Source: an uncultured Hungatella sp.
Lineage (GTDB): Bacteria; Bacillota; Clostridia; Lachnospirales; Lachnospiraceae
Assembly: GCA_947066955.1 (NCBI GenBank)
Contig: CAMTAF010000008.1
Location: forward strand, 1-55,647
Direction of reading: 5' to 3'
Length of the DNA: 55,647 nt
Shown here: positions 18,806 to 48,000 of the stretch, in pieces
Numbering within the stretch: position 1 is the stretch's first letter
Layout of the letters: every line of letters begins with the position of its first letter
Translations under genes and position numbers: made by a program
Notes under the pieces: model-generated
What the model was told of the DNA's origin: nothing
The model's input: the letters and a program-made list of their open reading frames with translations, nothing else
Database searches by the model: none

Positions 18806-19081
18806 ATGATTTTGTACCACGGAAGCAATGTAACCGTAGAACATCCGAAACTCATCCGGCAAAATCGTTATCTGGACTTTGGTTTTGGATTCTACACCAC
18901 AACCAATCGGGCTCAGGCTGTGAACTTTGCTCAAAGAGTCACACGGCGGCGTAAAACAGGTGCCGCTACTCTGAACATCTATTCAGTAGATGAGGCTGTG
19001 GCATTACAGCCCCATGACCCTGTATACCATGTATCAGGATGAGCTTTTGGCAGGCACCTATGATTACCCGGAGGAGGCGTG
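18806..19081 (+). pseudogene. DUF3990 protein, truncated and frame-disrupted
   Basis: The first 78 codons encode a recognisable DUF3990 N-terminus: [16 protein letters not shown] and [16 protein letters not shown]. This family is usually about twice as long, and its YHGS...FGFYTT pattern recalls ADP-ribosyltransferase folds (inference). The frame stops at 19042. The +1 frame then continues without a stop as [21 protein letters not shown] to 19081, directly before the DUF3791 gene. An internal deletion that joined two reading frames explains this best. A good AGGAGGG ribosome site remains. Confidence 0.55.
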
Positions 19082-19085
19082 AGCG

Positions 19086-19307
19086 ATGAGTAAGGAATCA
19101 AACTTTCTGATTTATTGTATGGAGCGATACCGCTATTTCAAAGGACTTTCTGGCGCGGATGTGGCAAAAACCTTTGATGAATATGGCATCTATGGGTACA
19201 TTACGAAATATTTTGAATCCCTGCATACAATGGGCGACCATTGCATCGTGCAGGATATTGACGATTATATCAGCAGTATAACAGGTGACGGCAGGATTAA
19301 GGCGTAA
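19086..19307 (+). CDS. DUF3791 small protein
   Basis: This 73-residue protein matches the DUF3791 pattern: FLIYCMERYRYFKGLSGADVAKTFDEYGIYGYI...YFESLHTMGDHCIVQDIDDYI. GGAGGAGG precedes the start with good spacing. DUF3791 genes are commonly found beside DUF3990 genes in Clostridia, which suggests a functional pair, perhaps toxin-antitoxin-like. That is inference, and here the DUF3990 partner is broken. Confidence 0.7.
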   Translation: MSKESNFLIYCMERYRYFKGLSGADVAKTFDEYGIYGYITKYFESLHTMGDHCIVQDIDDYISSITGDGRIKA

Positions 19308-19473: not shown

Positions 19474-19503
19474 TTGACACAGAATGATTTGAGACGATAC
19501 TAT
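19474..19503 (+). promoter_or_regulatory. Promoter of the LytTR two-component operon
   Basis: TTGACA (19474-19479), an 18-bp spacer and TACTAT (19498-19503) lie 43 bp before the response regulator start. Confidence 0.65.
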
Positions 19504-19545
19504 AAAGAGAGTAAATCTGATTTCATTTACAAAAGAGGTGGCCTA

Positions 19546-20268
19546 ATGTATCGGATAGCGGTCTGTGATGATGAGCCTAGGTATCTGGAGCTGGTAGACA
19601 AGAGACTGAAAAAATATTGTGAACAGAGGAATTTAATCATAGCCATAAAGCTGTACAGGGAATGTGACACCGTGATCGAGGAGGCGGAGAACGGAAAGCT
19701 GTATGATGTCTATATCATGGATATCGAGATGGCTGGCTCCTCCGGCATGGAGGCGGCCCGGGCGATTGGAGAGAGCTCATCTATGGCTTGTATCATTTTT
19801 CTCACAGCTCATGAAGCATACGCCGTGGAGGCCTGCGGACTGAATATTTTCCGCTATATATTAAAAGACAGGATGGACCATGAGCTTGAAAATGTATTAG
19901 ATGAACTGTTCTCTAAATTGGACAAGATGAAAGATGACGGAGTCTATACCATCAGCAATCAGCGGAAATACGTGAAGATGCTTCGGAGAGATATTGTCTA
20001 TATCTATAAAAGCCAGAAAAATATTGTGTTTGTCTTGAGGGACGGAACAGAAGAGGGAGAGAGAACAACCCTGAAAGAAGCTTATGAGAAATTAAAAAGC
20101 AGAGACATGTTTTTTCTGGACAGGGGGATTATCTTGAACCTGTTTCATGTTCAGAAGATCACCGGGGACACCGTCAGGCTTACAGGAGAACATCATATTT
20201 CCACCACAATGGAACACATCATGGAACTGAAGAGAGCTTTGGGAAAATACTGGGGGGAGATTCTGTGA
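19546..20268 (+). CDS. LytTR-family response regulator (AgrA-like)
   Basis: This is a 240-residue DNA-binding response regulator. The start chosen is the ATG after AGAGGTGG; a longer frame exists upstream but lacks a ribosome site and would cross the promoter. The receiver domain (residues 1-120) has the acidic pocket CDDE and the phosphorylated Asp59 in VYIMDIEMAGSSGMEAA. The C-terminal LytTR domain (about 135-238) includes KYVKMLRRDIVYIYKSQKNIVFVL and FFLDRGIILNLFHVQKI. Such proteins bind pairs of 9-bp direct repeats; a fitting pair lies at 21626-21656. It overlaps the sensor kinase gene by 4 bp (ATGA). Confidence 0.9.
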   Translation: MYRIAVCDDEPRYLELVDKRLKKYCEQRNLIIAIKLYRECDTVIEEAENGKLYDVYIMDIEMAGSSGMEAARAIGESSSMACIIFLTAHEAYAVEACGLNIFRYILKDRMDHELENVLDELFSKLDKMKDDGVYTISNQRKYVKMLRRDIVYIYKSQKNIVFVLRDGTEEGERTTLKEAYEKLKSRDMFFLDRGIILNLFHVQKITGDTVRLTGEHHISTTMEHIMELKRALGKYWGEIL

Positions 20269-21545
20269 TGATCTTTCAGGCAGTGGAACTGCTGGCTACC
20301 TTTGCGGAGGCTTTGGCAGGAATGATGATTATCGGGAAGATATCAGGAGAAGGCGCGGTTAAATGGAGAAAAAGCCTGGCGGCCTCGGCAGGTCTCTCGG
20401 TGGTTGTGTGGATGTTAAATCAATACAAACTGTTTTCCCCCTGGATAGCGGTGGTCTCTGTGGCGGGTTTTGTAATCAATGCCATTATAATATACAAAAC
20501 AGAGCTTGCGGAAGCAATGCTCATAGCGGTCACTTACGTGATGCTGCTGTACATCATTGATTTTTTATCAATCGCTGTTTTGGGCGTGATATTCCAGAGA
20601 GAACAGGTGGCTGATCTATTGATAAATTCGTTTTCTTTTGAACGGATCGGTCTTATAATTTTGGCAAAGGCCTTGCTGGGTTTTATCTACATTATTTTGG
20701 AAAGATACATTTTGCGTGATATGCGCTTTCGCACATGGAAAGCGTGGATCGGCGTTTTGATTGGGCTGGGGCTGATATACTGGTTTATGAACAATACGTT
20801 GTCAAAGGCAGACGGAAATATGGTTTTGACAGGAGCAATCCTATTGGCCTTGCTGTTGTTGGGGGCGTACGCAGCCAGCGAAAGATTGTCCCATGTGAGA
20901 GAAAAAGGCGAACTGACCGTGGTTGTGGAGAGAAGCAGTATCATGGCAGAGGACTACAGAGAGGCGACAGAGAATTACCGGAAAAATCAGATTTTCTACC
21001 ATGATCTGAAAAACCATCATCTGATCATAGAGGAATATCTGAAAAATGGGGAATATGAGAAAGCAAGGCAGTATATGGAAGCCCTGGAAACCGCGGAAGG
21101 AACAGAACTGCCCAAAAGGTGGACAGGGATCGACGCTTTGGATATTTTACTGGAATATAAGAAAAAGGAGGCAAAGACGCTGGGGATCAAAGTGGAGATT
21201 ACCGCGGTTCCGATTTGTTTGGATCTGTCTGAACAGGAGATCACAGCTGTCCTGGGAAATGCCTTTGACAATGCTATTGAGGCTTGCAGGGAGGTGAAAA
21301 ACGGGGAGAAATGGATTGGGATTAGTATCCGTAAGGTCAGAGAAATGACCTTTATCAAAGTATCCAACTCCTGTGAAGAAGAGCTGGAAGGGGAAAGAGG
21401 AAGGTTGGTGTCTAAAAAGCAGGACAAATCCTTGCACGGCCTGGGAATGATCAGCATGGAACAGGTGGTCAGCAAGTACGGCGGAATTATGGATATCAAA
21501 TGGGAAGACGGGATATTCTGTGTTGTATTTTTATTTTTTTGTTAG
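20265..21545 (+). CDS. GHKL-type sensor histidine kinase (AgrC-like)
   Basis: This 426-residue membrane kinase is the partner of the LytTR regulator. The first ~205 residues contain about six hydrophobic helices. The phospho-accepting His246 is in IFYHDLKNHHLIIEEYL. The ATPase domain shows the N box NAFDNAIEACREVK and a degenerate glycine box near LHGLGMISMEQVV. This is the AgrC class, which usually senses secreted peptides. No agrB/agrD pair is present, so the peptide source, if there is one, is not visible here. A perfect terminator follows. Confidence 0.9.
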   Translation: MMIFQAVELLATFAEALAGMMIIGKISGEGAVKWRKSLAASAGLSVVVWMLNQYKLFSPWIAVVSVAGFVINAIIIYKTELAEAMLIAVTYVMLLYIIDFLSIAVLGVIFQREQVADLLINSFSFERIGLIILAKALLGFIYIILERYILRDMRFRTWKAWIGVLIGLGLIYWFMNNTLSKADGNMVLTGAILLALLLLGAYAASERLSHVREKGELTVVVERSSIMAEDYREATENYRKNQIFYHDLKNHHLIIEEYLKNGEYEKARQYMEALETAEGTELPKRWTGIDALDILLEYKKKEAKTLGIKVEITAVPICLDLSEQEITAVLGNAFDNAIEACREVKNGEKWIGISIRKVREMTFIKVSNSCEEELEGERGRLVSKKQDKSLHGLGMISMEQVVSKYGGIMDIKWEDGIFCVVFLFFC

Positions 21546-21551
21546 GGGATA

Positions 21552-21595
21552 AAAGAAGTGCCTCTTCGAGATATAGAAGAGGCACTTCTTTTTTT
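21552..21595 (+). terminator. Rho-independent terminator after the sensor kinase
   Basis: AAGAAGTGCCTCTTC pairs perfectly with GAAGAGGCACTTCTT and is followed by T5. It separates the two-component operon from the exporter genes. Confidence 0.93.
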
Positions 21596-21625
21596 GATAA
21601 TAAAAAGAGGGAAACTCGGCATTTT

Positions 21626-21656
21626 GAGGACAAAACACCTATGATTAGAGGACAAA
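21626..21656 (+). promoter_or_regulatory. Probable LytTR-regulator binding site (two direct 9-bp repeats)
   Basis: GAGGACAAA occurs at 21626-21634 and 21648-21656, 22 bp apart, about two helical turns. Pairs of 9-bp direct repeats with 12-13-bp spacers are the standard binding layout of LytTR regulators. The site lies just after the two-component operon and ahead of the first exporter gene, with a TATACT -10 candidate about 35 bp downstream and no good -35 box, as expected of an activated promoter. Confidence 0.55.
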
Positions 21657-21722
21657 GTGACAGGAATGTGTTCCCATAAGTTATACTTACTATATGAAAA
21701 CTTTTTGGGGGAAAGGTATAAA

Positions 21723-23477
21723 GTGTATAAAAGTTTACGCTTTGTCTATGGCTTTATAAAATCTTATATAAAGAGACTTTTACTAATATTTTTTGTCATT
21801 ATAGTAACAACGTATATTGTAGCAATGTATCCATATCTTTATGGAAAAATGATTGATACGCTATTTTATCAAGGTGATATATATGATTTTTTAAATTATA
21901 TAGGACTCTATTTTTTGATCTTTGTAGTAAATCAATTGTTACATTTTATTTTGGATATGACAACAGTAAAAACCCGTACAAGTCTTCAAAAAGACATCAA
22001 ATGCTATATATTCCGGAAAACATTATCTTATAAAGGAAATGTTTTAAGTAATATTAAGTCTGGAGATGTTATTTATCGGATGAATCATGATGCTGATGAG
22101 TTTATGAATTTGATATATAGTGATTTCTTTTATGGGATTTCAGCATTATTTGATCTTATTCTCTGCATTGGTATGACAGCATTAATAAATATGCCTTTAG
22201 CATTTGTTTCGGCGTTTTTGGTTATAATGACTTTTCTTATTGGAAAATATTTTGCTGGCCAGGTGAAAGCAATAAGAAAAAAGGTGGTAACGCATCTCGC
22301 GGAAAACCAATCATGGCTTTCAGAATGTTTACAATGTATGCAGGATATAAGATTGTTGTCAGCCACAAAAATCATTGTGAATAAATATATAAAAAAAGAT
22401 ATTATCTCAATCCGATTAGGAATAAAACAGGCAAAATGTGAAGTTATTTCTGATAGAAGTAACGCGGCTATGCAATATTTTTGTACAATTTGTCTGTATG
22501 TTATTTCAGCGATATTAATATCAGCTGGAACTATGACTTTAGGAGGAATGATAGCTTGCATTGATTACTATGAGCGAATCGTTTTGATGTTAAGTAGAAT
22601 AAGTAAACGATTCCTTACAGTTCCTAATCGTTTAGTTGCAATAGAAAGAGTAATGTCAGTGGGAAAAGTTGACTTAGAGGAATATAATGATTATTTGCCT
22701 GAACAACCTATCAAATATGGCGAAATACATATAAAAAACGTATCTTTTTCGTATGATGGTGAAAAAGAGATTCTTAAAGGAGTATCTTTGGATATATTTT
22801 CTGGAGAGTGTTTAGCTTTGGTAGGAAAAAGTGGAGAAGGAAAGAGTACAATAGCACAATTACTTTGCCGATTGTATGAGGCCTATGATGGGGAAATTAC
22901 AATTGACGATATTCCTATAAATAAATATAACCTGCACAGTCTAAGAAAGCAAGTAGGCATAGCTTACCAAGATGCGATGCTATTTCAAAATACTATTCGT
23001 TATAATTTGATTTTTTCTAATAGTAAAGACAGGGATGAAGAAATTTGGACAGTACTTGAGAAGATTAAATTTGCAGATTTTGTCCGTAGCTTACCACAAG
23101 GGCTGGATACTAGACTTCTATCATCAGAAAGATTACTGTCAGGTGGACAAAAACAGCGTATTGCGATAGCTAGGATATTATTAAAAGATACGCCAATAGT
23201 TATATTTGACGAGTCAATGTCCTCTTTGGACCGGGAAACTGAGAACGATATCTTAAATACATGGAACGATTTATTAAAAGAAAAAACTATTTTGATAATT
23301 GCTCATCGGTTGGCAACCATTATCCATGCAGATAAAGTGGCCTTTTTGGAGAATGGTCGAATAATTGGTTGTGATAGACATGAAAGGCTCCTTGAAAATT
23401 GTGTACCATATAGGCAATTATTTTTAGCCCCAAATATGGCAGAAGAAGGGGGGATTGAGCATGGAGATGATGTTTAG
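21723..23477 (+). CDS. ABC exporter half-transporter 1 (membrane domain fused to ATPase)
   Basis: This type I exporter half has about 584 residues from a GTG start that follows GGGGGAAAGG; an upstream in-frame start lacks a ribosome site. The N-terminal ~310 residues hold six hydrophobic helices. The ATPase domain shows Walker A GKSGEGKST, Q loop GIAYQDAMLF, signature LLSGGQKQRIA, Walker B VIFDESMSSLD and the H loop IIAHRLATI. No peptidase domain is present. It overlaps the second half-transporter by 17 bp, so the two probably form a heterodimer. The gene is very AT-rich compared with the flanking chromosome. The substrate is unknown; peptide or lipid-like molecules are the usual cargo. Confidence 0.88.
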   Translation: MYKSLRFVYGFIKSYIKRLLLIFFVIIVTTYIVAMYPYLYGKMIDTLFYQGDIYDFLNYIGLYFLIFVVNQLLHFILDMTTVKTRTSLQKDIKCYIFRKTLSYKGNVLSNIKSGDVIYRMNHDADEFMNLIYSDFFYGISALFDLILCIGMTALINMPLAFVSAFLVIMTFLIGKYFAGQVKAIRKKVVTHLAENQSWLSECLQCMQDIRLLSATKIIVNKYIKKDIISIRLGIKQAKCEVISDRSNAAMQYFCTICLYVISAILISAGTMTLGGMIACIDYYERIVLMLSRISKRFLTVPNRLVAIERVMSVGKVDLEEYNDYLPEQPIKYGEIHIKNVSFSYDGEKEILKGVSLDIFSGECLALVGKSGEGKSTIAQLLCRLYEAYDGEITIDDIPINKYNLHSLRKQVGIAYQDAMLFQNTIRYNLIFSNSKDRDEEIWTVLEKIKFADFVRSLPQGLDTRLLSSERLLSGGQKQRIAIARILLKDTPIVIFDESMSSLDRETENDILNTWNDLLKEKTILIIAHRLATIIHADKVAFLENGRIIGCDRHERLLENCVPYRQLFLAPNMAEEGGIEHGDDV

Positions 23478-25194
23478 AAATAATAAGAGGTGGCTATATT
23501 TAAAAGAACTATGCCCATTTATTTATAAAAATAAGAAAAATGCTATATTAATTGTTACGTTTAAATTAGGGATTACTTTGATTGTGATAGGCTCTCCTTT
23601 AATATATCGTTATTTTATCAATGATATTATTATTGACGGAAACTTAAATAATCTTTTTTGGATTGTAAACGGTTATCTTATACTATATTTCTTCCAGAGT
23701 CTTTTCCTTATACAGTTTACAATTTTTGATAATAGATTTAAAAATCTTTTGCATGTTGATTTACGCAAGAAGTTACTATACTCTTATTCTACTATTTCTA
23801 TGGAAAAATATAATAAGATGAGTAAAGGAGATATAAGGAATGTCATAGAAGAGGATACCCAAAAACTGCAGGAATTATATAGCGAATCTGTAAACGTAAT
23901 TTTTGGCATAATAACGGTCATTGTCCTTCAAATAATTATGGTAATTATGGATTGGCGTTTGACATTGTTTGGCCTTTTAATGATTTTATGTTCATTTATA
24001 TTGACGCGCTTTGTTGGAGATAAGGTAAAAACAGTATCAGAACAATATAGGAAAGGTGTAGGAGAACTTGACAGTGTAGTACATCATTTATTACAAAATT
24101 GGAAAGAAATAAAGGCAAATAATTTAGAAGAACAAGCTGAGAATGAAATTAGTTTGAAATGGCAAGAGATTTCTTCGTTTACAATCAAGAGAACATTTTA
24201 CGAATATTTGGCTGGAGCATTAGCAGTATTGAATCTTTTAGTTATAACAAGGACAAGCTTGTATTTTTTTGGCGGCCTTTTGATTTTTAATGGTATGACA
24301 ACGGTTGCGACCATGCTGGTGTTTATGAATTACTATCAACAATTGAATCAGCAGATGACAAATTTAACGGGTTTAATGGTAAAATTTAAATCTGATGAAA
24401 GCCAGATAGTAAGAGTGATAGATACATTGAAGATGAAAGCAGAAAAAACAACAGCCGTACTTGCAAATGGAGACATTGTATTAAAGAATGTAAGTTTTTG
24501 TCACCAAGGTTTTTCTGAAATGACTTTAGATCATATTAATATGATAATCCCACAAAAGAGCCGTATTGCGATTGTAGGAAAAAGTGGAAGTGGAAAATCT
24601 ACTTTAGCGAAATTATTGTTAGGAATAGTACAGCCAACAGAAGGGAATATTTATATAGGCCAAACAGAAATCAGAGACATTTCAGAACAGGAAGTAAATA
24701 AAAAAATTAGTGCGGTTATGCAGGAACCACAATTTTTTAATATATCCATTGCGGAAAATTTACGTTTAGCAAAAAAAGATGCTACTATGGCGGAGCTGGA
24801 TAATGCATGTTCTCAGGCTAATATATATGATTTTATACAAAGTTTGCCTGACAGGTATGACACTATTATCGGAGAGCGTGGAGTTAAATTGTCAGGCGGG
24901 CAGAGACAGAGATTGGCCATAGCTAGGATACTGCTGGCAAATCCAGAGGTGATTATATTTGATGAAGCAACTTCTTCATTAGATAGTGAAAATGAAAAGG
25001 AGATTATGCAAGCGATCCGAACTATTTCGCAGGAAAAAACAATAATAACAATTGCACATCGTTTTGCGACAATTGCTGATTCTGATTATATTTTCTTGTT
25101 AAAGGAAGGTAGGTTAGCCGCACAAGGAACTACAAAGGAAATGTTCTCGGATAATATAGAAATGAAGCAATTGTTTCAAATGAAATTAGGATGA
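23461..25194 (+). CDS. ABC exporter half-transporter 2 (membrane domain fused to ATPase)
   Basis: 577 residues from the ATG that follows AGAAGGGGGG. Six hydrophobic helices occupy the first ~310 residues. The ATPase domain has Walker A GKSGSGKST, Q loop AVMQEPQFFN, signature KLSGGQRQRLA, Walker B IIFDEATSSLD and H loop IAHRFATI; all catalytic motifs look intact. The overlap with half-transporter 1 implies coupled translation and a heterodimer. It shares the AT-rich composition of the island. Confidence 0.9.
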   Translation: MEMMFRNNKRWLYLKELCPFIYKNKKNAILIVTFKLGITLIVIGSPLIYRYFINDIIIDGNLNNLFWIVNGYLILYFFQSLFLIQFTIFDNRFKNLLHVDLRKKLLYSYSTISMEKYNKMSKGDIRNVIEEDTQKLQELYSESVNVIFGIITVIVLQIIMVIMDWRLTLFGLLMILCSFILTRFVGDKVKTVSEQYRKGVGELDSVVHHLLQNWKEIKANNLEEQAENEISLKWQEISSFTIKRTFYEYLAGALAVLNLLVITRTSLYFFGGLLIFNGMTTVATMLVFMNYYQQLNQQMTNLTGLMVKFKSDESQIVRVIDTLKMKAEKTTAVLANGDIVLKNVSFCHQGFSEMTLDHINMIIPQKSRIAIVGKSGSGKSTLAKLLLGIVQPTEGNIYIGQTEIRDISEQEVNKKISAVMQEPQFFNISIAENLRLAKKDATMAELDNACSQANIYDFIQSLPDRYDTIIGERGVKLSGGQRQRLAIARILLANPEVIIFDEATSSLDSENEKEIMQAIRTISQEKTIITIAHRFATIADSDYIFLLKEGRLAAQGTTKEMFSDNIEMKQLFQMKLG

Positions 25195-25219
25195 TAGGGC
25201 CAGGGCATGGAGGGATTCT

Positions 25220-25525
25220 ATGAAATATAAACTGTTTCTAAGATGTGTTTATATATGTATCTTGGCAGGTTTCCTCGTTAACCTGCGATCAATCACATCG
25301 TTCCTTGACGCAGACATGATGGAAATGATCTTGAGCAAAGGTTTTGGAACATCTCTGATGAGCATGGGAAATACTATACAAAAGTTCTTGATTCCCGGAC
25401 TTGCCGCCGGGTTTGTTGGGCTGATGATGAACCGGCAATTACGATTGTGGCAAGGCTGTTTGCTCTGTTTATTTCTTCCACTCTTTCGGTCTTTTTTATT
25501 GCTATGGTCTTCTACGGTATTTTAA
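25220..25525 (+). CDS. Small membrane protein of unknown function
   Basis: This is a 101-residue protein with about three hydrophobic segments: LRCVYICILAGFLVNL, KFLIPGLAAGFVGLMM and LCLFLPLFRSFLLLW. It starts 25 bp after the second exporter half and is probably in the same operon. I do not recognise the family. An accessory subunit of the exporter or an immunity-type membrane protein are possible guesses. Confidence 0.6.
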   Translation: MKYKLFLRCVYICILAGFLVNLRSITSFLDADMMEMILSKGFGTSLMSMGNTIQKFLIPGLAAGFVGLMMNRQLRLWQGCLLCLFLPLFRSFLLLWSSTVF

Positions 25526-25528
25526 CAT

Positions 25529-25618
25529 ATGGAAAATAAAACAGATGGAGTGGGAATACCAGAAGGAGAGCAAACAAAAGTAAATTTCGCAAAAGAAGGA
25601 ATAAAGGAATATGAGTAA
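25529..25618 (+). CDS. Possible 29-codon ORF overlapping TPR lipoprotein 1 start
   Basis: The frame begins MENKTDGVGIPEGEQ and ends KEGIKEYE. Its stop overlaps the lipoprotein ATG by 8 bases. A near-identical ORF precedes TPR lipoprotein 4, and a remnant ending EGIKEYE precedes TPR lipoprotein 3. No ribosome site is visible, and three of the four base differences between the two full copies change the amino acid, so coding selection is not supported. It may just be the leader of the lipoprotein gene that was duplicated along with it. Confidence 0.25.
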   Translation: MENKTDGVGIPEGEQTKVNFAKEGIKEYE

Positions 25619-26684
25619 AAAAATATTGTTATTAATATTATGTTTATTAGCGGCATCAGGCTGCCAAAGGGAAAAGGAAGTGCGAATTGAGATATCTCTA
25701 GAACGGCCTCTTTATGATTTTGCGAAAATATATTATGAATTAAATGATTATGAAAATGCCGTATTGATCTACAAAAAAATATTGTTGGATATAGAGACAC
25801 AAGAAGATGGACAGAACATTGATAAGTATTGGATAGAGGGAATGATAGCGAGAATCTATCTGGAGATGGAAGAATATGATCTTGCAAAGGTGTATATTGA
25901 AGATGCAATCAAGGGATATCAAGAATGGGGAGAGACAGAGGAAGGATATGCATTTGCCTGTCAGACAGAAGGAATCTATTTTGAACAAGTAGGACAATAT
26001 GAAAAAGCAATAGAATGCTTCGAAAAATCTATAGAGTATACAGATTTAGAGGATGATCACTCTGTAAGAAGCTATATAGAAATGGGCCTTTCCTATGGGT
26101 ATTTGGATAACGAGAAAACACAGCTGGAATGTTATGAGAGAGCATTGGAATATAGCGAGAGTAAAAAGGATAATGAGGATCTTTACCAAGTATGTAATAT
26201 TTTAGGGGTTTATTATACTGAAAAGGGAGATTTAAAAAAAGGAAAGGAACTATTTGAAAAAAGTTTAAATTGCGCAAAAGAAGCTTGGGGAAAAGAATCT
26301 TCCCAGGTTGCTAAAGTATATCAAAATCTTGCGCAAAATAGTAGTTTAAAAGGTGAAAATCGAAAAGCGATTCGGTATTTAAAAAAGGCGTTAGACATTG
26401 TATTAAAATTAAAAGGATATTATGAAGAGGATATCGCTACAATATATAATGATTTGGGATATATAAACATGAAATTAAATCATGATACTGTCGCGCTGGA
26501 AATGATGAAAAAATCCTATAATACTGTAAAAGAAAATGAGAAGAGTAAGGTTATTTCTGGATTTTATAAAGATGAATTAAGCATAAACATAAAAGCGCTA
26601 TATGATAAGACAGCAGCTGATGAAATAGGATATGATGAATGGTTCAAGCAGAATTTTGAAACTTATGTAGGGGATACAGAATAG
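25611..26684 (+). CDS. TPR-repeat lipoprotein 1
   Basis: This is a 357-residue surface lipoprotein. The signal peptide MSKKILLLILCLLAASGC ends in a lipobox with Cys18 as the lipidation site. The rest is a helical TPR array of roughly seven units, for example YEKAIECFEKSIEYTDLEDD, TQLECYERALEYSES, RKAIRYLKKALDIVLK. The C-terminal motif ALYDKTAADEIGYDEWFKQNFE is shared by all four paralogues. TPR arrays bind peptides or proteins; here the array would face outwards. GAAGGAATAAAGGAAT precedes the start. Confidence 0.85.
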   Translation: MSKKILLLILCLLAASGCQREKEVRIEISLERPLYDFAKIYYELNDYENAVLIYKKILLDIETQEDGQNIDKYWIEGMIARIYLEMEEYDLAKVYIEDAIKGYQEWGETEEGYAFACQTEGIYFEQVGQYEKAIECFEKSIEYTDLEDDHSVRSYIEMGLSYGYLDNEKTQLECYERALEYSESKKDNEDLYQVCNILGVYYTEKGDLKKGKELFEKSLNCAKEAWGKESSQVAKVYQNLAQNSSLKGENRKAIRYLKKALDIVLKLKGYYEEDIATIYNDLGYINMKLNHDTVALEMMKKSYNTVKENEKSKVISGFYKDELSINIKALYDKTAADEIGYDEWFKQNFETYVGDTE

Positions 26685-26832
26685 ACTGATATGGAAAATA
26701 AAACAGGTGGAGTGGGGGGGATCATCCAGGGATTATGTATGGGGTTCGAAATAGAGCAAATGAAAAATCTGAGACGATAAATGTAGACCAAGCAAGCACT
26801 TTTCAAGATATAATAGGGGGGAATAAAAGGAT

Positions 26833-27909
26833 ATGAATAAAAAAATATTGATATTTATACTTGGCTTGCTGATTATATCAGGTTGTCAGGAGAAAGAGAT
26901 AGTGCGGCTTGGTATATCTATAGGATCCTCCCCCTATGATACGGCAATGGAGTATTATAAAGAAGGGGATTATGAGGAGGCTATAGAAATATATAAAGAA
27001 ATATTAACTGATATAGAAAAAGGAGTGGCGGAAGGCGGGATTGATGAGTATTGGGTAAAGGGCATGATAGCAAGGTCATACTTGGAGATAAATGAGTATG
27101 ATTTCGCAAAGCCATATATAGAAGAAGCAATAACGGGATATATGGATTATCAGGAGACAGGAGAAGGGTATGCTTTTATTTGTCAAACAGAGGGTATTTA
27201 TTTTAAACAAACAGGGCAGTATGAGAAAGCAATAGAGAGCCTTGAAAAATCTATAGAGTATACAGACGAGAAAAATGACCATTCCGTCAGAGGCTACATA
27301 GAAATGGGGTTTGTTTATGAGTATTTAAATGAAGAAAATAAACAGCTTGATTGTTACAAAAAAGCACTGAACCATGCTGAGAAAATAAAGGATTATGTGG
27401 ACTTATATCAAATATACACATTTTTGGGAATTTATTATGCGGAGAGGGGAGATGTAGAAAAAGGAGAAGAGATGTTCTATAAAAGTTTAGATAGTGCCGA
27501 AAAAGCATGGGGAAAAGAATCAGCAGGAGTTGCGGATGTGTATCATAGTTTAGCGGCAAATTTTAATCTAAAGGGACAATATGAAGAGGCAATTCAATGT
27601 TCGGAAAGGGCATTAACTATTTATTTAAATTTGGAGAAAAAAGTATATAGTAAAAAGATAGCTTCTTTGTATAATAATCTGGGAATTTTTTATTTAAAAC
27701 TGGAACAAGAAGAAACTGCTATGACAATGATGAGAAAATCTTATGAGATAGTAAAAGAAAATCAAGAAAAAAAGAATATATCTGAGTTTTATGAAAATGT
27801 GCTGAGTGTAAATATAAAGGCTTTATATGATAAGACAGCAGCTGATGAAATAGAATATGATGAATGGTTCAAACAGAATTTTGAATCATATGAAGGCGTA
27901 GTAGAGTGA
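26833..27909 (+). CDS. TPR-repeat lipoprotein 2
   Basis: 358 residues, a paralogue of the preceding gene. The signal peptide MNKKILIFILGLLIISGC has the lipobox LIISGC. TPR units include YEEAIEIYKEILTDIEKG, YEKAIESLEKSIEYTDEKND, YEEAIQCSERALTIY. The C-terminus carries the shared LYDKTAADEIEYDEWFKQNFES motif. The 148-bp gap before it starts like the leaders of copies 1 and 4 (ATGGAAAATAAAACAGG) and then diverges. AAAAGG precedes the start. Confidence 0.85.
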   Translation: MNKKILIFILGLLIISGCQEKEIVRLGISIGSSPYDTAMEYYKEGDYEEAIEIYKEILTDIEKGVAEGGIDEYWVKGMIARSYLEINEYDFAKPYIEEAITGYMDYQETGEGYAFICQTEGIYFKQTGQYEKAIESLEKSIEYTDEKNDHSVRGYIEMGFVYEYLNEENKQLDCYKKALNHAEKIKDYVDLYQIYTFLGIYYAERGDVEKGEEMFYKSLDSAEKAWGKESAGVADVYHSLAANFNLKGQYEEAIQCSERALTIYLNLEKKVYSKKIASLYNNLGIFYLKLEQEETAMTMMRKSYEIVKENQEKKNISEFYENVLSVNIKALYDKTAADEIEYDEWFKQNFESYEGVVE

Positions 27910-27958
27910 TTTTAGAAGGAGCAATGTGGAATGGGGAATCTGGAAGGAATAAAAGAGT

Positions 27959-29047
27959 ATGAATAAGAGAATATGGCCATTATTAATAATTATATTGATT
28001 ATATCGGGCTGTAAGAAAGAAATGACTATAGGGTTTTATCTTCCGGCAGGAACAGAAGAAGGGGAAACACCATATGAGATGGCTATGAACTATTATGAAA
28101 AAAGGGATTTCAAAAACGCCATAAATTCTTTTGAAAGAGTTCTAGCTGATATGGAAATAGGGTTGACAGAAAAGGGAATCAATGAATTTTGGATTAAAGG
28201 AATGATAGGAAGAACGTATCTGGAAATGAGTGAATATGATCTTGCGGGAGGCTATATAGAAGACGCGATAGAGGGATATAAAGAAAATAAAGAGACAGGA
28301 AGAGGGTATGCGATTATTGCTCAGACAGAAGGGATTTATTTTAGAAACATTGGAGAAATAGAAAAGGCGATACAGAGCCTGGAAGAATCTATAAAATATA
28401 CAGATTTAGAAGATGATAATTCGGTAAGAAGTTATATAGAATTAGGATCATGCTATGAGGAAATAGGTGAGGAAGAAAAGCAGGTAGAGTGTTATCAAAA
28501 AGCCATGGAACATGGTGAGAAACAAGGGGATTACGCTGCATTGACACAGCTATATAATAGCTGGGGCATTTATTACGCAGAAAGGGGAGATACACAAAAA
28601 GGGGAAGAGCTGTTCAAAAAAAGCCTTGAATGTGCACGCAGCGTGTGGGGGGAGGAGTCTGCCGGAGTTGCGAATGTATATCAAAAGTTAGCGTCAAACT
28701 GTAACTTGGAAGGACGATATGAAGAGGCAATCCAATATTCAGAAAAAGCACTGCATATTTTTGAAAATATTGCGGGCCATTATGAGAGAGATATAGCATC
28801 TATATATAATAATATGGGATGTCTAAATATGGAATTGGATGATGATGACACGGCTTTATTAATGATGAGAAGGTCATATGAGATTGTAAAAGAGAGCAAT
28901 GGAGAAGATAAAGATATGTCCAGGTTTTATGAGAATGTATTAAGTGTGAATATAAAAGATTTATATAACAAGACGGCGGCTGACCAAGAAGAATATGGGG
29001 AATGGTTTGAACAGAATTTTGAATCCTATGTAGAGGATACAGAATAG
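27959..29047 (+). CDS. TPR-repeat lipoprotein 3
   Basis: 362 residues, third paralogue. The signal peptide MNKRIWPLLIIILIISGC has the lipobox LIISGC. TPR units include FKNAINSFERVLADMEIG, IEKAIQSLEESIKYTDLEDD and YEEAIQYSEKALHIFEN. The C-terminal motif differs slightly (LYNKTAADQEEYGEWFEQNFESY), making it the most diverged copy at this end. Only 49 bp separate it from copy 2, with a short remnant of the leader ORF ending in KEYE. Confidence 0.85.
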   Translation: MNKRIWPLLIIILIISGCKKEMTIGFYLPAGTEEGETPYEMAMNYYEKRDFKNAINSFERVLADMEIGLTEKGINEFWIKGMIGRTYLEMSEYDLAGGYIEDAIEGYKENKETGRGYAIIAQTEGIYFRNIGEIEKAIQSLEESIKYTDLEDDNSVRSYIELGSCYEEIGEEEKQVECYQKAMEHGEKQGDYAALTQLYNSWGIYYAERGDTQKGEELFKKSLECARSVWGEESAGVANVYQKLASNCNLEGRYEEAIQYSEKALHIFENIAGHYERDIASIYNNMGCLNMELDDDDTALLMMRRSYEIVKESNGEDKDMSRFYENVLSVNIKDLYNKTAADQEEYGEWFEQNFESYVEDTE

Positions 29048-29053
29048 CCTGAT

Positions 29054-29143
29054 ATGGAAAATAAAACAGGTGGGATGGGAATACCAGAAGGAGAGCAAAC
29101 AAAAGTAAATTCCGCAAAAGAAGGAATAAAGGAATATGAGTAA
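29054..29143 (+). CDS. Possible 29-codon ORF overlapping TPR lipoprotein 4 start
   Basis: This is the second full copy of the leader ORF (MENKTGGMGIPEGEQ...KEGIKEYE), with the same 8-base overlap with the lipoprotein start. It differs from the copy before lipoprotein 1 by four bases. The same doubts about translation apply. Confidence 0.25.
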   Translation: MENKTGGMGIPEGEQTKVNSAKEGIKEYE

Positions 29144-30323
29144 AAAAGTATTGTTATTAATATTATGTCTATTAGCGATATCAGGCTGCCAAAGGGAAAA
29201 GGAAGTGATAATTCAGATATCTCTAGAACGGCCTCTTTATGATTTTGCAAAAATATATTATGTTATGAATAAAAGAATACTATTAATCCTGGTGAGTATG
29301 TTGATCATAGCAGGTTGCCAGAAGAAAGAGACAGTACAATTCGGTATAGTACTTGGGCCTTCTCCTTATGATATCGCAAAAGAATACTATGAAGAAGGAG
29401 ATTATGAGAACGCCATAATAACATATAAAAAAATACTATCAGATATACAAAAAGGCATAGCGGAAGGAGGACTCAATGAGTATTGGACAAAATGTATGAT
29501 GGCGAGATCATATCTGGAGATAGGCGAGTATGACTTAGCGGGATCCTATATAGAGGAAGCAGCTGCTGGATATAGGGAGTACGGGGAGACAGGGCAGGGA
29601 TATGATTTTATCTGTCTAACAGAGGGAACATATTTTCAAGAAACAGAACAGTATAAGAAAACGATCCAAAGCTTTGAGGAATCTATCAAATATATGGATT
29701 CCGAAGATGACTGGTCTGTGATTAGTTATATAAGGTTAGGACAGTGTTATGAGAGTATGGGAGAAGAGGAAGAGCAGATAGAGTGTTATAAAAAAGCGTT
29801 AGAATATAGTAAAGAAAGAAATGATTACGTGGATATGGCGGACATCTATAGTGTCTTGGGAATTTACCACGCACAGAGAGGCGATACAGATAAGGAGGAG
29901 GAGTTGTTAAAAAAAAGCCTTGAGTACGCAAAAAAAGCATGGGGAGAAGAGTCCGATGGAGTTGCGGGTATATATCAATATCTGGCATCAAATTGTAACT
30001 TGAAAAAAGAGTACCAAGAAGCAATTCGGTATTCAGAAAGAGCCTTAAATATTTATTTAAATTCCGAAAACGTTGATAATCAAAGAGATATAGCTTCTCT
30101 ATATAATAATATTGGATTTTTTAATTTAAAATTAGGAAATACAAATGATGCCTTGTCAATGATGGAAAAATCTTATGAGATAGTAAAAGAAAATCAAGAA
30201 AAAAAGAATATATCTGAATTTTATGAAAATGTGCTGAGTGTAAATATAAAGGCCTTATATGATAAGACAGCAGCTGATGAAATAGGATATGATGAATGGT
30301 TCAAGCAGAATTTTGAATCATAG
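29136..30323 (+). CDS. TPR-repeat lipoprotein 4, chimeric with two tandem lipoprotein signal peptides
   Basis: 395 residues. The first 43 codons copy the N-terminus of lipoprotein 1 (MSKKVLLLILCLLAISGCQR, then SLERPLYDFAKIYY). They are fused in frame to a second, complete lipoprotein start (MNKRILLILVSMLIIAGC, Met44, lipobox Cys61), then a TPR array such as YENAIITYKKILSDIQKG and YQEAIRYSERALNIY. The C-terminal ~50 residues are nearly identical to copy 2. Met44 has no ribosome site, while the upstream start has one, so the fused precursor is probably what is translated. Recombination between paralogues explains the fusion. Confidence 0.8.
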   Translation: MSKKVLLLILCLLAISGCQREKEVIIQISLERPLYDFAKIYYVMNKRILLILVSMLIIAGCQKKETVQFGIVLGPSPYDIAKEYYEEGDYENAIITYKKILSDIQKGIAEGGLNEYWTKCMMARSYLEIGEYDLAGSYIEEAAAGYREYGETGQGYDFICLTEGTYFQETEQYKKTIQSFEESIKYMDSEDDWSVISYIRLGQCYESMGEEEEQIECYKKALEYSKERNDYVDMADIYSVLGIYHAQRGDTDKEEELLKKSLEYAKKAWGEESDGVAGIYQYLASNCNLKKEYQEAIRYSERALNIYLNSENVDNQRDIASLYNNIGFFNLKLGNTNDALSMMEKSYEIVKENQEKKNISEFYENVLSVNIKALYDKTAADEIGYDEWFKQNFES

Positions 30324-30398
30324 GAGGAATCAGCGATGTCAATTTCAAAAATCGATTATTGAAAACAGGCAAATTCTAAGAAATTCCCGCTTTCAGGG

Positions 30399-30428
30399 TT
30401 TCCATTCTTTTCCTAAATCCATTATAAT
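30399..30428 (+). promoter_or_regulatory. Promoter of ABC exporter gene 3
   Basis: TTTCCA (30399-30404), an 18-bp spacer and a perfect TATAAT (30423-30428) lie about 90 bp before the gene. Between lipoprotein 4 and this promoter a well-placed AGGAGGAAT leads only to a nine-codon frame (ATG at 30336), perhaps the stub of a lost gene. Confidence 0.5.
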
Positions 30429-30515
30429 AGTCTTGTCTGCAACAATGCCGCAGATGTACAAACACCAGAGAAAGGAGTCTTTTGAAATTTACACAAGGAG
30501 AGAATAGAGAGGCAT

Positions 30516-32042
30516 ATGAATAAAAAAATTCAGACTTACATTTGGGGAGTAAAATTAGCCTGGAAGATCGATAAGAAAATGCTTATGTATTGGGGATTTA
30601 TCAGTGTTATGATTTCTGTTTTTCCGGCATTGATTTTATTATATTATCGTGATGTTTTGTCGGTTATATCAGAATTTATGAAAAAGGAGACCAGTGACGA
30701 TTTCTTTGCCGCAATATCAAGGTGCGGATCCCTGATAGATTTGACAAGCTCAAGCTGTGCTCTGCTGGGAAGCATTGTTTCTATCACATCGATTCTTGTG
30801 GTAGCAGCTGTCGTGTCTCCGCTTATCTGTATTTTCGCGTTAAGTTATGTTATCTTTGTGTTGGGCGTCAATGTCATGGCCTCTGAACGTGTAAGAGTAG
30901 TTTGGAAGGAATTGAGGGAACATCTGCGCAAGGCGGATTATATTAGAAATTTGGTTCAAGAAGGCGATACCGCAAAAGAAGTCCGCATTTTTCATAACGT
31001 TGATATGCTGAAAGCCAGTTGGGAGGCAGCGCGGGGCAAAGCAGATAAAATGAAATTACAGCAGACGGTATGGACCGCGAGGATTAATCTGATCTGTCAG
31101 GCAGGCTATTATATTTTTTTGATAATTATTATGGGAGCATCGCTGCTGAGACTCAGCGAAGGAATTATAAAGCCGGATATTTTGCTGATGCTTTTTACGT
31201 TGGGAACACAGATTGGGGAAAATGCAGAAAAAATCCCATATGCCTATCAGCGTCTGGATTACGGCATTTATGGGCTGGAACTTCAAAAAAGCTTTTTTGA
31301 ACAGACTCCGTCAGCAGCGCCGGAGACAGAGGCTTTGAAAACGGAGGCGCCTGCAGATGAGGAGGTTTGCTTCCAGGCAGAACATGTATCTTTCTCGTAT
31401 CCCGGAGGAAAGAAAGTATTGGACGATATATCTTTTTCGATCAATCGGGGAGAGACCATTGCTCTTGTGGGAATAAATGGAAGCGGGAAGACCACATTGC
31501 TGAAACTGCTGATGGGATTATATCATCCTGCTTCCGGAAAACTAAAATTTCAAGGAAGAAACTATGACGAGTATTGCCAGGGATATCTTATCAAGAAGGT
31601 AGGTTCATTCTTTCAAGATTTCGCTCTGTTCCATCTGACGGTAAAGGAAAATGTGGGGTTGGGAAATATTGACTGCATGGACGATGAGAAAATGATTTGG
31701 AATGCCTTGAAGAAGGGAGGTGTTGCGGATCTTGTAGCTTCCTGGGAAAATGGAATCAATCAAAAGCTTATGAAAAATGTCTATCGTGACGGCATTATCT
31801 TATCCGGAGGAGAAAGCCAGAGGATAGCGGTCGCCAGAACACATATGAGCGACAGGGAAATTTTGATTTTTGACGAACCTGCATCTATGTTGGACCCGAT
31901 TGCGGAATTAGAGCAATTTCGGCATATCAAGGAGAAGATACAGGGTCACACCTCTATACTGGTCAGCCACCGAATCGGATTTGCGCAGTTGGCAGACCGC
32001 ATTTTCGTATTGAATCAGGGAAAGATTGCTCTGCCTCTGTAG
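30516..32042 (+). CDS. ABC exporter half-transporter 3, shortened at the C-terminus
   Basis: 508 residues against about 590 for the family. Membrane helices occupy the first ~240 residues, but a stretch around the second helix looks missing (RCGSLIDLTSSSC joins two hydrophobic segments directly). The ATPase domain keeps Walker A GINGSGKTT, signature ILSGGESQRIA, Walker B LIFDEPASMLD and the H loop LVSHRIGF, then stops abruptly after FVLNQGKIALPL, where homologues continue for ~40 residues. The stop lies at a junction with the headless next gene, so a deletion probably fused the two. Function is doubtful. Confidence 0.75.
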   Translation: MNKKIQTYIWGVKLAWKIDKKMLMYWGFISVMISVFPALILLYYRDVLSVISEFMKKETSDDFFAAISRCGSLIDLTSSSCALLGSIVSITSILVVAAVVSPLICIFALSYVIFVLGVNVMASERVRVVWKELREHLRKADYIRNLVQEGDTAKEVRIFHNVDMLKASWEAARGKADKMKLQQTVWTARINLICQAGYYIFLIIIMGASLLRLSEGIIKPDILLMLFTLGTQIGENAEKIPYAYQRLDYGIYGLELQKSFFEQTPSAAPETEALKTEAPADEEVCFQAEHVSFSYPGGKKVLDDISFSINRGETIALVGINGSGKTTLLKLLMGLYHPASGKLKFQGRNYDEYCQGYLIKKVGSFFQDFALFHLTVKENVGLGNIDCMDDEKMIWNALKKGGVADLVASWENGINQKLMKNVYRDGIILSGGESQRIAVARTHMSDREILIFDEPASMLDPIAELEQFRHIKEKIQGHTSILVSHRIGFAQLADRIFVLNQGKIALPL

Positions 32043-32043
32043 A

Positions 32044-33522
32044 GTACAAATACATAGAGAATGAAAATAATTATCAGAAAAAACTGACATTTATAGAACA
32101 ATATGGGGCGGAAAGAGTGGCCGGAAGCATGAATATAACGGTAGATATGCTCCATTATTTTGTGACATTTGTGACAGTAACTTTGTCTATGATTGTGATC
32201 GACTGGCGTTTGCCGATAATCCTTTTGATAACATGCATTCCCGCGGTATTGATTTCCCATGCCCAGAATGACGAAAACTATCGGTATAATACAAAGACTA
32301 TGAAAGAAGCCGCCATGTCTGTCCATCTTTTTTACATAGCAGCCGGAGCTCAGAACCACTGTAAATCAATGAATACTGTGCGGTTTACAAGATCATATCC
32401 CTGGATAAAGAAAAAATGGAGAGAAGTTTCCGATGATTTTATAGAGAAGAAAAAGAAAATCTCAAAGAAATACCTTTTATGGAACATAATTGCTGATTGT
32501 CTGCGAAATGGAGTTTACCTGGCCGTGCTTTTAATTGTCGCCCGAAGACTATATCAGAATCCGGATTTGGGTCTCGGCGTTTTCACGTCTGTCTATTTAT
32601 TGTCAAGACAGCTGCAAAATACAGCCGGAAATATGCTGATCAGCGGAAGCACGCTGATCGGGGACATTCCATATATCAGAGATTTTCTTGAATTACAGAA
32701 AATTCCAAAAGAGCCCCAGGAAGAAACGGATACGCAAATTCAAAATGCGGAAATAGTATGTGACCATGTGAGTTTTTCTTATCCGAATGCGAAAAAAGAG
32801 GCGCTTCATGATATAAATGTGGTGATCCGCCAAGGAGAAAAAATCGCGATTGTAGGCCATAATGGTTCTGGAAAGTCCACGTTTGTGAATCTTTTATGCG
32901 GCATGTACGAACCGACGAGCGGAAAAATGACAATTGACGGTAGACGGATTTACGACATCCTGCAGTCTGCCCGCGATATAATTTCAGTAGTTTTCCAGAA
33001 CTTTGGACGGTACGAGACTTCTCTGCGGACTAATATTACAATAGGGGACATAAAAAGAAAATCACAGATGAAGAGATTTTGTCGTTGGTCGAGAAAACCG
33101 GTGCCAGCCAGATTATTGAGGCGCAGCCGTCAGGTTTGGATGAAGAGGTTGGGTCTTTCAGCGAAAAAGGCAATGATTTATCTGGAGGGAAGTGGCAGAA
33201 GATTGCGCTGACGAGAGCGCTGCTCCGAAAGAAAAGCCGGATTATCATATTAGATGAGCCTACAGCAGCCCTTGACCCGGTTGCGGAGGCAAATTTATAT
33301 CAGGATTTTGCGGAGCTGACAGGCGATAAGACTACTTTATTGATTTCCCACAGATTAGGATTTTCTACAGTCGCGGACCATATTTTGGTATTCGAAGACG
33401 GCAGGATTGTGGAAGACGGGAGCCATAAGGAGTTGATGAAGATGCGGGGAGTTTATGCTAAACTTTATGAAGCGCAAGCTGTGTGGTATAAAGATGGTAT
33501 AAAAACCATCGTCAAACATTGA
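32044..33522 (+). pseudogene. ABC exporter half-transporter 4, N-terminally deleted and frameshifted
   Basis: The frame is open from the stop of the previous gene (EYKYIENENNYQKKLTFIEQYG...) and starts in the middle of a membrane domain; the first ~100-150 codons are absent. The ATPase domain has Walker A GHNGSGKST and Q loop VVFQNFGRY. At about 33054-33062, in an A-rich run, the frame shifts. The continuation KITDEEILSLVEKTGASQII, signature DLSGGKWQKIA, Walker B IIILDEPTAALD and H loop LISHRLGF lies in another frame that ends at 33522. The two frames together would make one normal C-terminal half. Confidence 0.8.
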
Positions 33523-44910: not shown

Positions 44911-45058
44911 CCGGTGATTTAAGCACCTTTTGGGTTGCCGGTTGCAGCTATAGGCGGAATACTCTTAAAGTGTTCCAGATACAAGCGTGTTGAGAAAATT
45001 TTGCCCAGGGGGGCAGAACATTTCAAAGACATGTTACACAAAGCTAGGAGGAATGCAT

Positions 45059-48000
45059 ATGAATTTGCGGCACATCAAAAGAAGATGCGCATGGCTTCTG
45101 GCCGTGACCGCGGCGATCACGGCGGCGGTTCCCACGGGGGCCATGGCGGACATCAGGACAGGCAGCACTCTCAGAACCCTTACGGTGCCCAGAGAAGAGG
45201 CAAATTCACCGGAAAGAGCCGATTTGGAGGACACAGCGGCCGCCAAATCTACACCGTCCAATGCCCACGTAAAGGCGGTGGAGTCGTTCAACAAGAAAGT
45301 GACATTTGTGGGGATTGACGGCAAAGAACTGACAGGGGATGAATTGAACATCCCGGAGACGGAGGACAGCTTCCCCTATCTAAGCCAGGGACCCGGCCGG
45401 ACAAAGGGAAACATTGATTTAAAGTCCTACGGATACACGGAAAAAGAATTTTTCTTAAAGGGCACGGCCAATGTGTACAGTGCCGAGAATAAGGTTCTCA
45501 AGGTAGAGAAGAAAGACAAGGAGTATGTAAACCGCATCATCATGTTCCAGCCAGAGGACATGGCGGATTTCTCCGGCGTGGTTTACATTGACATCCTGAA
45601 TGCCAGCAGCAAGGTGGACCTTCCCGACATCTGGAGAAGAAGCTACGACTACTATATGCGCAGCGGCCACATTTACATAGGAATCACTTCAAAAGATGTG
45701 AATGTTGAGAGCCTGAAGCGGTTTGACCCGGAGCGGTACGAGGCCCTGACCTGGGAAGTGGATGGGGCGAATGAGAACGGCCTATTCTGGGATATGCTGG
45801 CCCAGGTGGGCTCCACGCTGAAGGCTGAGAACTCTCCTCTGCTCTACGGCGGAAAGTACACAGGCGATGTGTGGACCTATGTCACCGGCCAGTCTCAGTC
45901 CGGCTTCTATGTGAACACCTTTGTCAACAACTTCGCTGTGGCCAACCACATGCCCGAGGCCCCGGAGGATATCGAGGATCCGGAGTATCTGATGACAGAG
46001 GAGTATAAAGACACGCCCCATATTTTCGACGGTTTCCTCAACATGGTAGGAGGCATGACCAGCGCGGCTATCAACTCCGGCTCCCAGGCGGTCAGGACTT
46101 CCGAGCCAGTGGCCCAAACCGATGTTCCCTTTATCCTGATGGTGGGCGAGAATGACTACAATCCGGCACCAGTGAGGGATGATTCCGATGAGGAGGATAA
46201 CTTATACCGCCACTATGTGGTAGCAGGAGCATCCCACTCCCAGAAGATCTTCCTCCCGGATATGACCGACGAGATTCAGATCAGAGCGGGACGACCGGCG
46301 GGAGAGTACCCGGCATTTAAGGTGAGGGACGACGGAAAGCCCCACACTGTGAGTGACATGAACATGGATGTGTTTGTCAACGGAGCTCTCTGGAACCTTC
46401 ACCAGTGGGCGTCTGAGGGCATCAAGGCGCCTTACGGCCCGTCTACGGATGAGATTGAGGGAAAAGTGGAGTCCAGGCGCTTTATACCGGACCGGGATGA
46501 GTACGGCAACATGACCACGGGAATCATGTCTCCCCAGCTGCTGGTGCCGGTGGCTTCCTACTACGGCGGCGCTAACGGTGCGTTCTCCACGGACGGCGGC
46601 TCCATGGTCTATCTTGACCCGGAGGTCATCGGGGAGCTCTACAGCAGCAGAGAAGACTATCTGGAGAAATATGAGGCAGCTCTTGACAAGGTCATCGAGG
46701 AAGGCTGGATTCTGGAAGAGGACAAGGACCTGATGATGGAGCTGGCCCAGTCAGAGCCCATTTTCGGAAATCCCGTGAAGCATACCCAGTTCATCGAGGA
46801 GGCCATGGCGGCGGTTCCCGGGAAGGAAGAACTGTCAAAGGCTACCGCCAGCGCGGAAGGAAAAGCGTACACGGACTCCGAGTACCTGCTGACAGGCGAG
46901 GCCAACATGTACGGCGTTCTCCGTGCCAATGAGATCTACAGAAGAAGAATGTACTCCATGCCATACACCAACTACGCGAGAGTCTGCGTTCCCGAGGATT
47001 TCACCGGCGAGGTGGTTATTGACCTGATCGGTGAAGGGGAGGAGAAGGCTGATGTCACAGAATTGATGAAGGCAGGGAAGGCCTATGTGGGCATCACCGC
47101 GGACCCGGCGGCAGCGGCGGCCAAGGGCGGCAGCTGGGAGATTCCTTTCGGCGGCCTGGGCAAAGACCCCACCAGACCGGAGCTGGGACTGGTGTGGGAT
47201 ATCATCAGCCAGACCGTAAACTCTGTGCGCCAGGATGGCCTTGTAGGCGGCAGCAGAGCCAGCGACCTAAAAGTCACTCTGGGATACGGCGAGAAGGACC
47301 AGGTTATTGCTTACACTTACGGCATCGTGTTTGAGAACTTTGACGGATACGCTGTGGACAGCATTGCCAGCGGGGAAGTGAAAGAGGCCATGGCTCTCAA
47401 CAGCCTGGATACCACGGTTCCGGTAAGCGAGGATGCCTCCATTGACGACAACCAGAAAGTTACAGGCGCCCACGTAAAGGCGGTGGAGTCGTTCAACAAG
47501 AAAGTGACATTTGTGGGGATTGACGGCAAAGAACTGACAGGGGATGAATTGAACATCCCGGAGACGGAGGACAGCTTCCCCTATCTAAGCCAGGGACCCG
47601 GCCGGACAAAGGGAAACATTGATTTAAAGTCCTACGGATACACGGAAAAAGAATTTTTCTTAAAGGGCACGGCCAATGTGTACAGTGCCGAGAATAAGGT
47701 TCTCAAGGTAGAGAAGAAAGACAAGGAGTATGTAAACCGCATCATCATGTTCCAGCCAGAGGACATGGCGGATTTCTCCGGCGTGGTTTACATTGACATC
47801 CTGAATGCCAGCAGCAAGGTGGACCTTCCCGACATCTGGAGAAGAAGCTACGACTACTATATGCGCAGCGGCCACATTTACATAGGAATCACTTCAAAAG
47901 ATGTGAATGTTGAGAGCCTGAAGCGGTTTGACCCGGAGCGGTACGAGGCCCTGACCTGGGAAGTGGATGGGGCGAATGAGAACGGCCTATTCTGGGATAT

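Follow-up and report, generated by a model that had tools for sequence, protein, structure and literature searches.

The stretch of DNA analysed here in full (55,647 nucleotides; hereafter, the window) is one contig (CAMTAF010000008.1) of the 4.2 Mb draft genome, 92% complete, of an uncultured Hungatella sp. (GCA_947066955.1), a gut-type bacterium. Between 19.5 and 33.5 kb, it carries a response regulator and a sensor kinase of the AgrA/AgrC kind, two intact ATP-binding cassette (ABC) exporter halves, a membrane protein of 101 amino acids (aa), four tetratricopeptide repeat (TPR) proteins and a damaged exporter pair. Here, we examine the descent of the regulator pair and its likely connection to the exporter and TPR genes. 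The features of the block, all on the + strand, are the following.

19546..20268, +, AgrA-like response regulator with receiver and LytTR domains (PF00072 3.6e-13, PF04397 4.2e-5)
20268..21545, +, AgrC-like sensor kinase with a multi-helix membrane part (by eye) and a GHKL ATPase (PF14501 8.6e-23)
21551..21592, +, terminator-like hairpin with a U tract (-27.9 kcal/mol, z -8.5)
21626..21656, +, LytTR-type direct repeat, GAGGACAAA-N13-GAGGACAAA, 22 bp period
21657..23477, +, ABC1, exporter half (PF00664 and PF00005)
23467..25194, +, ABC2, exporter half (PF00664 and PF00005)
25220..25525, +, small membrane protein, 101 aa, no family
25611..26684, +, T1, TPR lipoprotein (PF13424 7.6e-26; signal ends ASGC)
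26833..27909, +, T2, TPR lipoprotein (PF13424 6.7e-28)
27959..29047, +, T3, TPR lipoprotein (PF13424 1.7e-38)
29052..29262, +, copy of the T1 leader and 5' end (25527-25737), 211 bp, 94% identical
29265..30323, +, T4, TPR lipoprotein, frame also opening at 29136 (PF13424 4.7e-38)
30516..32042, +, ABC3, damaged exporter half, 508 aa (606 in genome G397), separate cassette
32043..33522, +, ABC4 pseudogene, truncated at the N-terminus, frame disrupted, separate cassette

A reading made from the letters without database searches (the sequence-only reading) had taken this AT-rich block for one putative system. The gene content is as described there: the LytTR regulator, the GHKL kinase, the two intact exporter halves and the four TPR proteins are all present by Pfam, and the low GC content is evident against an overall GC of 0.53 in the window outside 17.3-34.8 kb. 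The unity of the block is another matter. The GC content at third codon positions (GC3) shows at least three parts, namely, the regulator pair (0.55), ABC1-ABC2 together with T1-T4 (0.25-0.28 and 0.27-0.32, respectively), and ABC3/ABC4 (0.44-0.50), the last of which falls outside the unit. Compared with the regulator pair, ABC1, ABC2 and T1-T4 seem to be foreign-looking, acquired cargo.

An agr-type regulator pair apparently without its signal genes

The window regulator is 43% identical to the regulator beside AgrB and AgrD in genome G420, 42% to that of G283 and 39% to that of G012. The same genomes hold the nearest kinases (39% identity for G012, 33-34% for G420 and G283), and in a tree of 11 kinases, which we chose from 25 kinase places at hand (those with loci, from 34 places listed), the window, G420, G283 and G012 form a clade with support of 100/98. 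In both G420 and G283, AgrB (PF04647) is encoded 3' of the kinase along with an AgrD-like gene (19.0 and 25.2 bits, respectively, with TIGR04223, cut-off 19); in G012, neither gene was seen by eye in the 1.4 kb that remain of the contig. On these similarities, the window pair is of the agr type by descent.

A search of the genome that contains the window gave no AgrB match (3 of 26 genomes of the genus have one), and a six-frame motif search for AgrD, which covered the window only, yielded a sole match, at 35.7 kb, which falls within an unrelated long frame. Because AgrB was not found in the genome nor AgrD in the window, we speak of agr-type signalling and not of a complete agr system; at 92% completeness, the absence of AgrB is likely rather than proven. 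The pair thus appears to have lost its own signal genes. Like agr quorum sensing (AgrB-AgrD-AgrC-AgrA), the window combines an AgrC/AgrA-type pair, whose clade members G420 and G283 come with AgrB and AgrD, with a direct-repeat site behind the kinase; unlike it, the window pair is not flanked by AgrB or AgrD, and the genes that follow the repeat site form a putative operon of exporters and lipoproteins.

The repeat site and its changing cargo

Between the kinase and ABC1, the hairpin at 21551-21592 (0 of 200 shuffles as good; not listed by our consensus terminator scan) is followed by the repeat at 21626-21656 and then, by eye, by TATACT, which resembles a -10 element, and by the start of ABC1. 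A period of 22 bp is in line with LytTR sites. Among the 26 genus genomes, the exact repeat is unique to the window. Its core, GGACA-N17-GGACA, occurs at 5 of the 25 distinct kinase places, that is, in all four members of the kinase clade plus G401, with the first core site 8 to 83 nucleotides (nt) 3' of the kinase stop; several of the 20 places that lack the core are short loci or have more distant kinases. Six distinct core sites were seen versus 0.54 expected by chance in 284,619 bases, where the expectation assumes uniform composition and the bases include overlapping loci. The four AgrB loci of genome G402 contain no exact core and no open reading frame (ORF) matching ABC1-4 or T1-T4. The LytTR-type site of the sequence-only reading is present and has counterparts behind the kinase in relatives. 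Because the pair is agr-type and its relatives carry the repeat in an equivalent position, it probably acts on the exporter operon, and control of ABC1-T4 by the pair is suggested.

In the related loci, the genes behind the site vary. In G420 (L061, 6447-13606), AgrB and AgrD are followed by genes starting with a TIR-domain protein, and a second core lies ~870 nt 3' of the kinase stop and ~300 nt 5' of the TIR-domain gene; this locus is a possible candidate for a quorum-controlled defence cassette. G283 (L096, 8644-15138) encodes the regulator, the kinase, AgrB, AgrD and then a low-GC ABC pair with only 21-23% identity to ABC1/ABC2. In G401 (L100, 3108-8729), the regulator, kinase and core come before a gene that by eye resembles a lipoprotein gene, together with an ABC transporter cassette, and in G012 a NUDIX-like gene (by eye) lies behind the site. 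Across the kinase clade and its kin, then, the site is retained and the cargo differs from locus to locus. A precedent is CA_C0082 of Clostridium acetobutylicum, which lies 88 bp behind agrA, is Agr-controlled and acts as an Agr effector (PMC10301443). There, too, the target is described directly behind the pair and under its control, but it is lanthipeptide synthetase-like and accompanies complete agrBD and agrCA (PMC10301443).

Exporters and operon continuity

ABC1 more likely starts at 21723 than at 21657, judging by the Shine-Dalgarno-like stretch ahead of it (by eye), and ABC2 is 26% identical to ABC1. No C39 peptidase is found among the 6 Pfam matches of ABC1 or the 14 of ABC2 at 0.01, a difference from bacteriocin exporters that carry this leader peptidase at their N-terminus. 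The small membrane protein has no Pfam or NCBIfam match at 0.01. The arrangement recalls lantibiotic immunity by LanFEG and LanI, where a transporter and a surface lipoprotein are also under a two-component system; LanFEG, however, is an ABC-2 type transporter, whereas ABC1/ABC2 are type-I exporter halves (PF00664), and LanI is one small lipoprotein as opposed to four TPR lipoproteins here. No lantibiotic family appeared among the Pfam matches of the block proteins scanned (part of the window genes), and PADLOC returned only ABC-ATPase-like and general TPR matches.

All genes from ABC1 to T4 lie on one strand and are spaced by 25 to about 150 nt, or by as much as 217 nt if T4 starts at the inner codon. 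Consensus scans gave 6 terminator-like matches (7.9 expected) and 64 promoter-like ones (52.9 expected, standard deviation 8.4); neither total is clearly above chance, and a single ABC1-T4 transcript is plausible. The lipoproteins could alternatively belong to an unrelated operon with its own regulator, an outcome that the sequence-only reading had named as fatal to it: no regulator gene lies between them and the exporters, and one weak terminator-like match does.

The same reading saw no substrate gene, and we recognised none in the block either. Frames of 29 codons precede T1, T2 and the T4 copy. They have no ribosome-binding site and were discarded as short signal genes; what they have in common is repeated spacer DNA, and those ahead of T1 and T4 stem from a single recent duplication. 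One of these frames, or the 101 aa membrane protein, might nevertheless be an exported signal that replaces agrBD and is bound by T1-T4. The frames are in place for such a role and ABC1/ABC2 could export the product, but the missing ribosome-binding sites and the spacer origin of the shared part make this very improbable.

The TPR lipoproteins

T1-T4 have mutual identities of 51-64%, belong to the TPR family and each start with a signal ending in Gly-Cys (alignment; lipobox by eye), in agreement with the earlier description of four paralogous surface lipoproteins. They look like constrained, intact paralogs with recent copying or recombination among them. The last ~60 codons of T2 and T4 are 95-96% identical at the DNA level, and the T4 frame opening at 29136 begins with 43 codons copied from the T1 5' end, joined in frame to a complete T4 that can start at 29265. 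The frame 29136-30323 thus encodes two signal sequences in tandem, and by eye a ribosome-binding-like stretch is present at the outer start only. Window means of the ratio of nonsynonymous to synonymous differences (pN/pS) range from 0.17 to 0.57, with pS saturated; diversifying selection, which we considered, is not seen at these values below 0.6. Diversification of the groove was not borne out either: the groove has 2.11 residues per column versus 2.25 for the other surface (four paralogs, p 0.42, crude repeat phasing).

The AlphaFold2 model of T2, built from a four-row alignment, has a mean predicted local distance difference test (pLDDT) score of 85 and a predicted TM-score (pTM) of 0.77, and consists of seven helical hairpins plus two C-terminal helices. 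Among the best 50 of 1674 Foldseek matches, the closest are TPR domains of LGN/Pins and kinesin light chain, many of those found being solved with bound peptides; among the matches listed, the best E is 1.1e-8 and the TM-score over the query reaches 0.66. The profile search agrees with the fold search on the TPR likeness. RRNPP proteins are present neither among 59 profile matches at 1e-4 nor among those best 50 Foldseek matches. Of the proposal that these are peptide-binding TPRs akin to the RRNPP/Rap family, the first part is upheld to the extent that T1-T4 resemble peptide-binding TPR superhelices in profile and model, and the link to RRNPP finds no counterpart among the matches listed. T1-T4 share the TPR superhelix with RRNPP receptors such as Rap and PlcR but differ in having a lipoprotein signal and no visible DNA-binding or phosphatase part; the Gly-Cys-ending signals of all four, as judged by eye, argue against a cytoplasmic, RRNPP-like location.

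These features also bear on a secretion role, in which T1-T4 would be membrane-anchored docking or chaperone proteins for the ABC1/ABC2 substrate, with no part in immunity. TPR scaffolds often bind partner proteins, the groove is not diversified, and T1-T4 share strand and composition with ABC1/ABC2. However, the block contains no recognised substrate gene, such exporters normally function without lipoproteins, and the four copies would be left unexplained, so we regard this role as unlikely.

The damaged exporter pair and the flanks

The two further exporter halves are indeed damaged, as had been read from the sequence. ABC3 (508 versus 606 aa) is 62.6% identical to an ORF of locus L028 over residues 51-502 and misses an internal stretch; ABC4 is shortened at the N-terminus and broken into two frames, 53% and 68% identical to one 670 aa ORF in L028. 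In congener G397, both genes of the pair are intact (606 and 670 aa), and tblastn with the window regulator, kinase and T1-T4 found no match at 1e-3 in the 19 kb read from that locus. ABC3 matches at 1e-70 occur in 2 of the 26 genus genomes, the one that contains the window and G397. Because it is intact in G397 with neither the regulator pair nor TPR genes nearby, ABC3/ABC4 is a separate cassette, and its assignment to the system is dropped.

To the left of the regulator, a truncated DUF3990 gene (78 aa, covering the first 64 of 152 model positions) is followed by DUF3791 (18806-19307), a pairing that we take to be a toxin-antitoxin-like remnant. At 44987-52357, the window encodes a protein of 2456 aa that has Abhydrolase_10 domains in repeated copies and, at its C-terminus, choline-binding repeats.

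Distribution

Relatives of the TPR proteins were found in 1 of 397 family genomes at 1e-25 and in 1 of 391 class genomes at 1e-20, in each case the genome that contains the window; the genus, family and class samples overlap. At 1e-8, 8 of the 26 genus genomes match, including this one, the other seven with values of 1e-9 to 1e-10 and frames of 593 to 1163 aa. At 1e-10, 14 of the 397 family genomes match, again including it. Five of the 13 others were inspected (G242, G176, G394, G053, G173): their best identity to T1-T4 is 24-32%, and we rejected them as relatives, the proteins looking cytoplasmic by their ORF starts. By eye, one of the five loci adjoins a TIR-like fragment. The remaining eight have open frames of 235 to 1140 aa. 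ABC1 relatives at 1e-110 are likewise confined to this genome (1 of 299 family genomes, with scoring limited to the top four candidates of each listed genome).

Scans of genome contigs gave 7 pattern matches for T2 and 81 for the TPR alignment, and viral contigs gave 147 for the TPR alignment, 2 for ABC1, 26 for ABC2 and 48 for the small protein; none was confirmed. Phages gave no match to the T2 protein or to the DNA of 21600-30500, nor did plasmids by megablast or with the small membrane protein. The plasmid matches of T2 (14 records, 21.6-27.7% identity) are distant TPR proteins only and were set aside; with ABC1 at 1e-60, two Staphylococcus multidrug exporters (31%) were retrieved. Among the literature matches listed, none describes TPR lipoproteins behind an agr-type pair. 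The sequence-only reading staked itself on exporters and lipoproteins staying together elsewhere. No other sampled genome keeps them together, but only in an empty sense, because none of those genomes has the lipoproteins at the cut-offs used.

Such a distribution would fit a chance gathering, in an accessory island, of an orphan regulator pair, two exporter genes and an array of lipoproteins with no common function. The patchwork composition, the damaged ABC3/ABC4 and truncated DUF3990 gene, and the terminator-like and promoter-like matches inside the block are consistent with this, too. Yet, the core lies 5' of ABC1 where relatives have it behind the kinase, ABC1, ABC2 and T1-T4 are alike in composition and strand, and the gaps between them are short; a chance assembly is, in our view, doubtful.

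A proposed mechanism

The reading that we favour, with a probability of about 0.42, is that an agr-type pair, no longer accompanied by its signal genes, governs an acquired operon made up of an exporter and extracytoplasmic peptide- or protein-binding lipoproteins. The kinase would sense an extracellular peptide, probably cyclic and autoinducer-like, and made by other cells, given that no AgrB was found in its own genome. The phosphorylated LytTR regulator would then bind the repeat at 21626-21656, as the shared site and its position suggest, and turn on ABC1, ABC2, the small membrane gene and T1-T4, as suggested by their order and strand. An ABC1/ABC2 dimer would export a substrate, and T1-T4, presumably anchored on the outer face, would bind an extended peptide or protein. 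The most likely role would be immunity-like, with an antimicrobial peptide caught and thereby kept off or pumped away; less likely, T1-T4 would escort the exporter's own product. ABC3/ABC4 has no part in this scheme.

Several observations weigh against this proposal. The agrBD genes may lie elsewhere in the genome, and no substrate peptide or toxin gene was recognised in the block. Genus-wide, the full repeat with up to 2 mismatches gave 10 matches in 26 genomes compared with 28 for the reversed control, so that the loose pattern is meaningless and the argument depends on the exact core and on where it lies. The small membrane gene has a GC3 of 0.45, unlike its neighbours, and the block is therefore perhaps stitched together from several sources. 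It also contains the weak terminator-like match (25394-25411), between the exporters and the lipoproteins, and promoter-like matches fall inside the TPR genes, although neither class of match is clearly above chance. The lipobox and outer-face location of T1-T4, while probable, were judged by eye, and a groove no more variable than the other surface argues against a diversifying immunity array.

A bolder version of the proposal, which we consider rather improbable, is an eavesdropping receptor, that is, an orphan agr-type pair that hears the cyclic peptides of neighbours and raises an exporter and a peptide-binding surface TPR array. It would be, to our knowledge, the first case of a TPR system that binds peptides on the outside of a Gram-positive membrane.

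If the favoured reading is true, an agr receiver has been cut off from its own signal and now controls acquired surface cargo. The kinase clade, whose members have different cargo behind the same kind of site, would then lend itself to studying how quorum receivers gain new outputs, and also whether TPR arrays act outside Gram-positive cells.

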